Part shown: in pieces, positions 22,791 through 26,202 of the stretch
Position numbering within the stretch: the first letter of the stretch is position 1
Layout of the letters: each line of letters starts with the position of its first letter
Assembly: GCF_000378105.1 (NCBI RefSeq)
Contig: NZ_KB899250.1
Span: 62,001 to 126,000, forward strand
Source: Rubritalea marina DSM 17716
Lineage (GTDB): Bacteria > Verrucomicrobiota > Verrucomicrobiia > Verrucomicrobiales > Akkermansiaceae
Direction: 5' to 3'
Length of the DNA: 64,000 nucleotides
Notes under the pieces: model-generated
The model's database searches: none
Seen by the model: the letters and a program-made list of their open reading frames with translations, nothing else
What the model was told of the DNA's origin: nothing
Program-made: the position numbers and the translations under genes

Positions 22791-23038
22791 GAGTATGGAG
22801 CAACAAAGCTTGGATTCCTAAATTTGGCAAGCAAAGGGAGCAACTTTTGTACAGGAGCCATTGCTTCGTGTCGGGCTCGGAGCAAAAAAATCTCCCCATA
22901 TAAGAATCCATCACCTTAAGCAAAAGGCTGGAATCAACGTGGCCTAAGTATGATGGAGCCAACGATACCTCCATCGACTTGATCAAAGCACACACATTCT
23001 GCTTGCAAGTCCTTGCCGCTGCGCCAAGTATCCGCCCC

Positions 23039-23509
23039 ATGAGTGAATTTGAGGAGAAAGTCCGCGAGACGCTTGCCAACCCACAGAACCAAGGAGAAAT
23101 GTCAGATGCCGATTCAGTAGGCACTGTCGGGTCTCCCGACTGCGGCGACATGCTAAGAATGTGGCTCAAATTCACCGAAAAAGACGGCAAGAAGGTCATC
23201 GACCGCGCTTCCTTCCAGTCCTTCGGCTGCCAGACAGCCATCGCAGTAGCATCAATGGCAACTGAAATGCTCAAGGGCATGACGGCTGATGAAGCCGCCA
23301 AACTAGATGCTCAAGAGCTCAGTGGCGAGCTCGGCGCACTGCCACCGATGAAAATCCACTGTGGCCAACTCGTGGAGGGAGCACTCAAAAATGCTCTTTC
23401 CCCCGATGACAGCTCTGAGGCAAGTCAGCCCAACACCAGCAACACTCTGGCCGGCGACATCCATGCCCCCGCCAAAGGTTCCATCCGCATCGTTCCTCTG
23501 GAGGACTAA
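23039..23509 (+). CDS. IscU/NifU N-terminal-type Fe-S scaffold protein
   Basis: 156 residues from ATG 23039 (MSEFEEKVRETLANPQNQGE). The three scaffold cysteines are in VGSPDCGDMLRMWL, SFQSFGCQTAIAVASMATEM and MKIHCGQLVEGALK, the IscU/NifU order, and the LPPMKxHC context replaces the usual LPPVKxHCS. A C-terminal extension of about 35 residues after the third Cys has no known domain. It would build Fe-S clusters in the cytoplasm, yet no cysteine desulfurase, HscB or IscA lies near. An upstream start at 22979 is not needed. Confidence 0.85.
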   Translation: MSEFEEKVRETLANPQNQGEMSDADSVGTVGSPDCGDMLRMWLKFTEKDGKKVIDRASFQSFGCQTAIAVASMATEMLKGMTADEAAKLDAQELSGELGALPPMKIHCGQLVEGALKNALSPDDSSEASQPNTSNTLAGDIHAPAKGSIRIVPLED

Positions 23510-23548: not shown

Positions 23549-24145
23549 ATGAAGCTTCGCTACCTCAGATTCGTACGCAAAAGCTACCGCTACCTGCGCC
23601 ACCCAAGGCTTCGCAGGATCAAGTGGCTCGAGCCACTGACGCATGCGATCTTCGACAAGCAATTTTGGAAACCATGCCGCGACACCGTGGCTAGCGGGCT
23701 CTCGGTGGGGCTTTTCTGCGCCATGCTGCCGGTTCCCATGCAGATGATTTTGGCCGCGATCGGCTGCATCCGCACCAAGGGCAACATTCCCGTAGCACTT
23801 GCCACATGCTGGATCACGAACCCGATCACCCAGCTCCCCATCATGGTGACCCAGCACCAATTTGGCGCTTGGCTCCACAAAACCATCGGCATTCCTCGCC
23901 CCCCAATCATCTCCAATCTCGAGAAAAAAGTCACAGCAGAAGACCTCTACCTATTCGGCGTGCAGATCCTTGAAGCAGGTGAGTTCACTGTCAACGTGGG
24001 CGACTTCGTACTCGGTTTCTTCAGCGCTGCCGTCCTTCTCAGCCTCATCGCATTCCCCATCGTTTGGGGCGTTTGCCTGTTCTTACCCAACCTAGGGAAG
24101 CACCCGGATCGCATGAACAAGCAGCCCAACCAAGAACAATCATAG
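23549..24145 (+). CDS. DUF2062 membrane protein
   Basis: 198 residues. A basic start (KLRYLRFVRKSYRYLRHPRL) is followed by the DUF2062 core: ASGLSVGLFCAMLPVPMQMI, IPVALATCWITNPITQLPIM, then a second pair of helices (DFVLGFFSAAVLLSLIAFPI). Multi-pass inner-membrane protein of unknown role. It lies 39 bases after the Fe-S scaffold gene on the same strand and may be co-transcribed. Confidence 0.82.
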   Translation: MKLRYLRFVRKSYRYLRHPRLRRIKWLEPLTHAIFDKQFWKPCRDTVASGLSVGLFCAMLPVPMQMILAAIGCIRTKGNIPVALATCWITNPITQLPIMVTQHQFGAWLHKTIGIPRPPIISNLEKKVTAEDLYLFGVQILEAGEFTVNVGDFVLGFFSAAVLLSLIAFPIVWGVCLFLPNLGKHPDRMNKQPNQEQS

Positions 24146-24250: not shown

Positions 24251-25009
24251 CTAGCTGGCGCGCTTTTTCCACAGGCTGACCTTGGAGACACCAAGCTGAA
24301 ACTTTCGCCCGTGCTCGCGAATGATGAAAGGTTCATCCGAATCGCGCACAAGCTCAAAGTGAGGCTCTAGCTGCTGCTGAAGCCATTCCCACGAGTCACC
24401 TTGCGGCCACTTCTCTTTGGGAGTGTATTGCTCTAACCATGAAAATGGAGTGGCCAAAACCAACTCGCCACCATCAGCAAGCATCCCAGGCAGAGAATCC
24501 AAGAATGCTAGCGGATCCGGAAGACGACAAAGTAGATTCGATGCATGCACCCGATCAAAGCCCTTGAAGCCAGCCGGCAGGTCCATCGCATCCCCCTGAG
24601 CAAAGCGCACTTTTTCAGGGTCAACCTCAGGTGGCAACTCCGCCACCGCATCGACCCAGCGCTCGCCTTCCTCATGCATCTTGTAGGCGATGCTGCCCTC
24701 CTCTTTTAGCGTGTTGGCTGCATCGATAAAGCTCTGAGAAAAATCGATCCCTATCACCTTCTTAGATGTCTTGGTGAGCAGAAAGCTCGTGCGCCCGACA
24801 GCACACCCGAGATCGAGACTCAGACCCACGCGCTTGGGTGAAAAGTACTCCACCGTTCGGCTCACAAAGTCGAGCGATCCAATGCCACCGATCACCCAGG
24901 GCATGCGCTCTTCATCTTTACCATAATGCATCAGCAAATACTCGCTGAGCAACTTCACAGATTCGTAATCTTGCATCGAATGGATTGGTCTATACGAAGT
25001 AGATTCCAT
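24251..25009 (-). CDS. SAM methyltransferase resembling the OvoA C-terminal domain
   Basis: 252 residues, class I methyltransferase. SAM loop LDLGCAVGRTSF, motif II VIGIDFSQSFIDAA, then RVHASNLLCRLPDPLAFLDSL and GGELVLATPFSWLEQYTP. This order, above all the NLLxRLPxPxxFL and TPFSWLExYTP blocks, is that of the C-terminal domain of OvoA, the putative 4-mercaptohistidine N1-methyltransferase of ovothiol synthesis, here as a separate protein without the sulfoxide synthase part. Its ATG shares one base with the upstream stop (TAATG), so translation is coupled to the M29-like gene. That it methylates a mercaptohistidine is inference from similarity. Confidence 0.72.
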   Translation of the reverse strand: MESTSYRPIHSMQDYESVKLLSEYLLMHYGKDEERMPWVIGGIGSLDFVSRTVEYFSPKRVGLSLDLGCAVGRTSFLLTKTSKKVIGIDFSQSFIDAANTLKEEGSIAYKMHEEGERWVDAVAELPPEVDPEKVRFAQGDAMDLPAGFKGFDRVHASNLLCRLPDPLAFLDSLPGMLADGGELVLATPFSWLEQYTPKEKWPQGDSWEWLQQQLEPHFELVRDSDEPFIIREHGRKFQLGVSKVSLWKKRAS

Positions 25010-26202
25010 TACTCGCTACAGAGCGCGTCCATGATGTAGGCGCTCGGGCGGAAATGCTGGATGATGACTTCTTCCTGCTCGCCGCGCTGCATGCGCACCT
25101 CGCTGATGTCGAAGTTTGGCGTTTTGTGTGGTGCGAATAAAATGTCATCATGCGTGCTATTCTCATGCTTCTTGAACATCTCTGGCACGATGTCGCCACC
25201 GAGGTGGTCATCGCGACCTGTAGCCAGGTGGCAAGTACCGAGTACTTTCTCATCTTGGATGTCTTGATAAGAAACCGGAAGCACCTGAGTGCCGAAGCCT
25301 AGCTCGCCGAGCGTGCCAGTCATTGGATCATCCGCGAGGCGCGCATTGTGCTCATCGATCGTGGACTGCTCGCCTTCAATCAAGGTCGACTTGATGATGT
25401 TGCGATTCTCCACCGTAAGCACACCGAGCGTGCCATCTTCATACTTCATCGGGAACTCTCCTCTGGCATCCACAGGAACAAAATACACTTCACCAGCCGG
25501 AAGGTTCGCCACATCGGGCTTCATCCCCTTACAAAGCCCGTGCGACTTCTGCGCGTCTTGAGCATCGAGCCCAAGCCAGGCAGTCAGCACGCGGCCGTCT
25601 TCTAAAGTGAAATCAATTTCAATCGAATCCGCATTGCTCATCGCATGGCGCACCTTCTCAGCGTCGCGCGACACCTCATCATAATCCACCGCCAGTCCAG
25701 AGCCTAAGATGATGTCATTCATCCCATGCATCGTCGCACCACGGAAACCATATTCCTTACACTTGGCTGTCAGGGGCGCAGTTGCACTCCAGGTAGAGAT
25801 ACAAAGGATGATGTCATACTTGCTGTAGATATCCTGATCCAATGAAAGCTCATTACCCTCTGAATCATAACAGGCATCGCGTAGGTCGAGATTTGACCCA
25901 TGCGTGCAGTAGTATGCGTACATCTCACCACCCGTCATGCCCAATTCCTCCATCACACCGTCACGGAATGTCTCATAGAAATTTTCGTATGCCTTGCGCT
26001 GCACGCTGTATGCGTCATTCGATAAAAAGGAAAAATCCTTCATCCACTTCTGAGGCTCATCAAAATCAATCAAGATGCACACGTTGCATCCATCGGTCGG
26101 CTCAAACACAGTCTTCATGAGCTTGGTCACCGAGAATGGAGGGAATTCACGCTGTTCTGGGTTCAGCATGATGTTTTCATTAAGGTATTCAGGTATCACC
26201 AT
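25009..26202 (-). CDS. M29-like metallopeptidase homologue with altered active site
   Basis: 397 residues. The C-terminal half fits the M29 aminopeptidase (AmpS/AmpT) pattern: NLPAGEVYFVP (E238), GELGFGTQ (E300), DEKVLGTCHLATGRDD (H325) and HDDILFAP (H351, D353), the expected metal ligands. Where M29 has HIALGxxY with a catalytic Tyr seven residues after the His, this protein has D332, so activity may differ. The N-terminal half has WSATAPLTAKCKEYGFRGATM, as expected for the family. It is the first gene of a coupled pair with the methyltransferase. Substrate unknown; a small peptide or thiol-histidine derivative is only a guess. Confidence 0.65.
   Translation of the reverse strand: MVIPEYLNENIMLNPEQREFPPFSVTKLMKTVFEPTDGCNVCILIDFDEPQKWMKDFSFLSNDAYSVQRKAYENFYETFRDGVMEELGMTGGEMYAYYCTHGSNLDLRDACYDSEGNELSLDQDIYSKYDIILCISTWSATAPLTAKCKEYGFRGATMHGMNDIILGSGLAVDYDEVSRDAEKVRHAMSNADSIEIDFTLEDGRVLTAWLGLDAQDAQKSHGLCKGMKPDVANLPAGEVYFVPVDARGEFPMKYEDGTLGVLTVENRNIIKSTLIEGEQSTIDEHNARLADDPMTGTLGELGFGTQVLPVSYQDIQDEKVLGTCHLATGRDDHLGGDIVPEMFKKHENSTHDDILFAPHKTPNFDISEVRMQRGEQEEVIIQHFRPSAYIMDALCSE

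Follow-up and report, generated by a model that had tools for sequence, protein, structure and literature searches.

A metalloenzyme-like protein of the M29/NicX superfamily is co-inherited with an OvoA-type methyltransferase in Verrucomicrobiota and may take the place of OvoA as its partner

The window analyzed here, a stretch of 64,000 nucleotides from the genome of Rubritalea marina DSM 17716, carries on its minus strand two adjoining genes: gene 1 (26202-25009), an open reading frame for a 397-aa metalloenzyme-like protein of a new subfamily of the M29/NicX superfamily, and gene 2 (25009-24251), coding for a 252-aa SAM methyltransferase (MT) of the OvoA C-terminal/OvoM type. The two are coupled and obligately co-inherited, and among genomes with this MT clade gene 1 stands in an either/or relation with OvoA, the bifunctional ovothiol synthase. 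Replacement of OvoA by gene 1 is well supported; provided that OvoA can stand in for gene 1 beside this MT, the substrate supplied by gene 1 is most likely the one that OvoA provides, or one similar to it. OvoA produces the 5-thiohistidine precursor (PMC12631010). We give about an even chance to the reading that gene 1 and the MT form one functional module, in which gene 1, a metal-dependent enzyme of M29/NicX fold, would do the work of the sulfoxide synthase OvoA by providing a thiohistidine-type substrate, and the MT would methylate this substrate, most likely on a nitrogen of the imidazole of 5-thiohistidine or of a very close analog. The original prediction was of a pathway acting on a histidine- or thiol-containing metabolite; the structures of OvoM and OvsM and the partnership with OvoA make the thiol-histidine type probable. 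The substrate class of the pair is thus something that we infer, and the chemistry of gene 1 is conjecture.

Both open reading frames lie as predicted, the stop codon of gene 1 and the start codon of gene 2 having in common one base, the A at 25009, within a TAATG stop/start overlap for translational coupling (25007..25011, minus strand). In many relatives, the junction between the two genes is a 4-base overlap or a gap of 0-15 nt. The description of a coupled pair holds for the overlap in the window and for the conserved functional pairing, but many species of the same family have the two genes far apart. The pair does have a terminator of its own: 3′ of gene 2 there is an intrinsic terminator (24215-24187, minus strand) made of a 13-pair stem followed by a T run, with a folding energy of −17 kcal/mol (z = −4.6), and the neighbor on the opposite strand, which is convergent with the pair, ends at 24145. 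Upstream of the gene converging on the pair, positions 22979-23509 encode an iron-sulfur scaffold protein of the NifU N-terminal type (PF01592), which is not conserved as a neighbor of gene 1 and the MT.

The MT matches the NCBIfam profile of the OvoA C-terminal domain (TIGR04345, ovoA_Cterm) over all of its positions (1-242 of 242) with 184.8 bits, for a cut-off of 170, and its predicted resemblance to this domain is thereby substantiated; Pfam finds in it only generic methyltransferase domains. Its top sequence matches in the PDB are OvoM (9bxl, 1.8e-40), OvsM, and OvoA. When the predicted structure (pLDDT 93) is compared using Foldseek, the first eleven matches are again OvoA, OvoM, and OvsM, at ~1e-25, and the next ones, unrelated enzymes, are found at 6.5e-10, a drop of 14 orders of magnitude. 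The nearest structures include OvoA_Th2 (8khq, the OvoA C-terminal domain, hereafter OvoA-C), OvoM with 5-thiohistidine (9bxn), and OvsM with 5-selenohistidine (9bxk). A comparison of alignment columns indicates that 37 paired MTs retain the residues on which OvoM, OvsM, and OvoA-C agree, both in the pocket and in the SAM site (e.g., Y15, Y24, N158, R162, P166, T196, W201, R231, R235, and W247). OvoM (9bxl-9bxn) and OvsM (9bxh-9bxk) are thus like the MT in fold, in pocket positions, and in their stand-alone form. The MT differs from these proteins and from OvoA-C in that it falls in a separate clade, has an M29/NicX-fold protein as a partner, and occurs in a genome without OvoA. In the phylogenetic tree, which is unrooted and has no outgroup, a 99/93 branch lies between the paired MTs and OvoA-C, OvoM, and OvsM. 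The MT thus belongs to a known family but to a clade of its own within it; since the paired MTs stand apart from the characterized types, their substrate, the exact nature of which we deduce from these homologs, may differ. A parallel with the N-methylation of bacillithiol by NmbA (PMC12719100) was discarded, as NmbA is absent from the PDB sequence matches of the MT.

The gene 1 protein of the window has no match in Pfam (E up to 1) or NCBIfam, nor one to PF02073 (Peptidase_M29), and searching the PDB sequences gives nothing significant, whether the query is the single protein or a profile built from 42 sequences. PF02073 is matched by 19 of these 42 relatives (E up to 1, best 4.9e-5), and an alignment with AmpS is reached only through a bridging profile. 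The AlphaFold2 model (pLDDT 96.2) has a fold for which comparison gives a Z of 26.6 with NicX (309 aligned residues, rmsd 3.6) and of 18.6 with M29 aminopeptidases. The fold is also related, by a much weaker match, to those of CgnE and CgnB from crocagin biosynthesis (6zsu and 6zsv, Z 13.4 and 11.8), proteins of a natural-product pathway that PMC10070186 describes as peptide-binding. Judging from sequence and model, the similarity to M29 is real but remote. Hence, the early description of gene 1 as an M29-like peptidase is right about the superfamily, but peptidase is too specific a term, as the NicX fold is nearer and the catalytic Tyr is gone. Relatives of gene 1, 48-84% identical, are found throughout Verrucomicrobiota: a scan of contigs gave 481 matches, and the best 80, which were kept, are all from this phylum. 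Collections of plasmids and phages gave either remote aminopeptidase-like matches or none.

The original prediction was that gene 1 keeps the metal ligands of M29 with an Asp instead of the catalytic Tyr, and this is what one finds in 156 of 156 distinct relatives. The invariant ligands are E238 (codon 25489..25491, minus strand, in NLPAGE; the AmpS counterpart is NIPTEE), E300 (25303..25305, minus strand, in GELG; GEVAL in AmpS and His265 in NicX), H325 (25228..25230, minus strand, in GTCHLATG; ACHLAIG in AmpS and a Leu in NicX), and H351 and D353, from the His351-Asp352-Asp353 codons (25144..25152, minus strand), an HxD motif common to NicX (HLD). H351 and D353 are assigned as M29 ligands by motif order, the alignment with AmpS stopping after H325. 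The position of the M29 catalytic Tyr, which we take to be seven residues past the first metal His, is occupied by Asp332, followed by His333 (25204..25209, minus strand, for both codons). D332 and H333 are themselves invariant among the 156 distinct proteins, as are K219, S220, C224, H159, and R330; Cys224 (25531..25533, minus strand) belongs to a KSHGLC motif and is absent from generic M29-like homologs. We know of no peptidase signature formed by the invariant K219, S220, C224, R330, and H333, which are specific to the paired proteins.

Gene 1 is thus in the same superfamily as the M29 proteins AmpS, PepS, and AmpT (1zjc, 4icq, 2ayi; PF02073), of which it keeps the five metal-ligand positions, but it departs from them by Asp332 in the place of Tyr and by the additional invariant motifs KSHGLC and GRxDHLGG. 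NicX, a 2,5-dihydroxypyridine 5,6-dioxygenase (7cup, 7cn3), is its nearest relative in fold and has the HxD ligands in common with it; NicX binds iron through H265, S302, H318, and D320 (PMC7910607). The equivalents of H318 and D320 are kept in gene 1, but, according to an alignment through a bridging protein (L218), H265 corresponds to Glu300 and S302 to Ala327. Conversely, NicX has Phe, His, and Leu at the positions that are Glu238, Glu300, and His325 in gene 1 and M29, from the same bridging alignment. The changed iron ligands rule out that gene 1 is a NicX, as the fold match would have it. With the ligand set of M29 and an Asp at the position of Tyr, gene 1 is therefore neither a standard M29 peptidase nor NicX. 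A sister M29/NicX-fold subfamily (L208-L216) is ~30% identical to gene 1; it has a GRSEHLGG motif, with a Glu at the Tyr position, and conserves both the Cys and the metal ligands. Its genes have no MT in their neighborhoods, and in some genomes one is found as a second copy beside a paired gene 1.

To assess the distribution of the two genes, we surveyed 387 Verrucomicrobiota genomes, among them that of the window (G000, 3.01 Mb, 95.5% complete). Gene 1 occurs in 57 of them; 64 have a stand-alone MT and 18 have OvoA. Every genome with gene 1 has the MT (57/57, Fisher p 6e-61) and none has OvoA (0/57), so that the pairing is conserved in relatives, as anticipated. In 44 of the 57, the MT is downstream of gene 1 on the same strand at 6.1 kb or less, and in 33 at 200 nt or less. 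The pairwise distances of the two proteins co-vary (r 0.71, for a permuted maximum of 0.20), also with unlinked genomes included (r 0.68), and shared descent accounts for part of this correlation. Within the family of the window (145 genomes), where the pair is single-copy and near-universal, 109 genomes have both genes, 7 only gene 1, and 7 only the MT; the pair is also present in several other families. We found no third gene conserved beside the pair: neighbors such as an MscS channel or a short-chain dehydrogenase are lineage-specific, and the genes lying between gene 1 and the MT in some genomes belong to no common family.

OvoA has an MT domain of the same kind, but its sulfoxide synthase domain is absent from both the window and the genome: in the latter, 95.5% complete, the profile of the OvoA N-terminal domain (TIGR04344) has no match over the cut-off, and the sole weak match is a protein with only the FGE-sulfatase part. 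The MT thus occurs without the sulfoxide synthase, as had been proposed. In the phylum survey, seven genomes have a stand-alone MT and lack gene 1, and all seven have OvoA. In two surveys of families, OvoA was taken to be a TIGR04345 match inside a frame of 700-800 aa, with no separate search for the N-terminal domain. In the first (110 genomes), there are ten genomes with fused OvoA, each with an extra MT and none with gene 1, and one genome has the pair without OvoA; in the second, OvoA is found in 10/10 genomes, the extra MT in 9/10, and gene 1 in 0/10. The only OvoA genome of its family without an extra MT has an OvoA split into two open frames (L229, G258:C1:2889965-2892704). In four other OvoA genomes (L078, L079, L080, and L081), genes for an amino-acid ABC importer (SBP_bac_3, BPD_transp_1, and ABC_tran) come after the extra MT, in the interval from roughly 4.1 to 7.3 kb or 6.1 to 9.3 kb of each locus, hinting at a possible uptake of a histidine-like compound.

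Putting together the three surveys, the MT clade is represented in 77 genomes, of which 58 have only the metalloenzyme, 19 only OvoA, none both, and none neither; an incomplete genome with a sub-threshold MT match (G504) is left out of this count, and the search for OvoA did not cover the 7 MT-only genomes of the window's own family. OvoA therefore has the partner role for the MT clade in 19 genomes. Because these correspond to about two independent lineages, the associated p of 2e-18 overstates the case, and when gene 1 and OvoA are considered alone their mutual avoidance is not significant (p 0.053). Seven of the 19 OvoA-linked extra MTs were placed in the tree, where they branch within the paired clade at two separate points. 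Gene 1 was thus probably lost twice, and the simplest history compatible with the tree is probably that the pair is ancestral and that each loss took place in an OvoA-bearing lineage. Two chance coincidences are unlikely, OvoA being in <5% of the sampled genomes.

If gene 1 and the MT are one module, the leading idea for the step of gene 1 would be a metal-dependent installation of sulfur on the imidazole of histidine, either by oxidative coupling or by transfer via the invariant Cys224. Gene 1 would then be a new thiohistidine-forming enzyme that places sulfur without a sulfoxide synthase, giving Verrucomicrobiota a way to ovothiol, or to a new 5-thiohistidine, that arose independently of OvoA. 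We propose this tentatively, as a possibility that is on balance doubtful: the metal ligands of gene 1 are of the hydrolase type, which counts against it, and we know of no homolog of gene 1 that forms C-S bonds. The main alternative is indeed hydrolytic, gene 1 being a metallohydrolase that cleaves a peptide, amide, or N-acyl conjugate, either taken up or produced elsewhere, and so sets free 5-thiohistidine (or ovothiol) for the MT to methylate. All five M29 hydrolase ligands are kept, N-acetyl-5-thiohistidine is present in other bacteria (PMC12631010), and a related MT adjoins the amino-acid importer in one OvoA-bearing family. Such a salvage nevertheless seems to us unlikely, given the loss of the catalytic Tyr, the lack of an importer conserved beside the pair of gene 1 and MT, and the single-copy presence of the pair in 109/145 genomes of the family and in several further families, a distribution more in keeping with core metabolism than with the use of a rare conjugate.

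One might also suppose that no sulfur is involved, and that gene 1 oxidizes or otherwise modifies an imidazole or another azole amino acid in the manner of NicX, the MT having shifted with it. The closest fold is indeed that of a heterocycle dioxygenase, and the MT clade is distinct from OvoA-C, OvoM, and OvsM; yet the iron ligands H265 and S302 of NicX are not kept, the pocket positions of the MT match those of OvoM and OvsM, and it is OvoA, a maker of thio-histidine, that takes the place of gene 1 with the same MT clade, all of which makes this alternative quite unlikely. The MTs of the 19 OvoA genomes raise a further issue. Because a fused OvoA already contains a ring-methylating domain, the stand-alone MT retained there may do something else, e.g., alpha-N-methylation. 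The enzyme making ovothiol B and C is not known (PMC12631010), and the MT in general could be this missing alpha-N-methyltransferase, acting after ring methylation on a metabolite that gene 1 supplies or protects. We consider this improbable, as the 58 genomes without OvoA would have no other ring methylase, and the pocket of the MT resembles that of the ring methylases OvoM and OvsM. Finally, although only 22/80 loci of Akkermansiaceae have the two genes linked within 8 kb, it is extremely improbable that these are unrelated genes on a conserved Verrucomicrobiota segment, since the pairing persists where they are unlinked, no other neighbor is conserved, the 44 close cases all agree in gene order and strand, and just 14/145 genomes of the window's family show a mismatch, all of them ≤93% complete.

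To our knowledge, no way into ovothiol biosynthesis other than OvoA has been described, and genomes lacking it are thus read as those of non-producers. If the module formed by gene 1 and the MT replaces OvoA, the range of thiol antioxidants would extend to much of Verrucomicrobiota. If gene 1 does install sulfur, it would be a second evolutionary solution for imidazole thiolation and a further chemistry for a fold so far known from aminopeptidases and NicX. Searches of open-access full text, which do not prove novelty, gave no paper that links M29/NicX-type proteins to ovothiol; for ovothiol in Verrucomicrobiota they gave one review containing both words and nothing else. The data bear out part of the earlier interpretation and refine its view of gene 1, from an M29-like peptidase to a partner that would replace OvoA.

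Two of the seven gene 1-only genomes are from one small-genome genus (G004 and G017; L224 and L225), in which gene 1 is intact and ~71% identical and the MT is neither nearby nor detected, suggesting that gene 1 may sometimes act alone. Among the best 80 of the 481 matches, the pair is near-universal in Haloferula, Roseibacillus, Luteolibacter, and similar genera, and these three are aerobes. The sampled members of another genus (g3), with complete genomes of 2.2-3.5 Mb, have neither gene, while the two have been retained in most of the family's remaining genera. The near-universal presence of the pair in aerobic genera and its absence from this genus make it plausible that the pair serves in redox protection under aerobic conditions or in an oxygen-dependent step.
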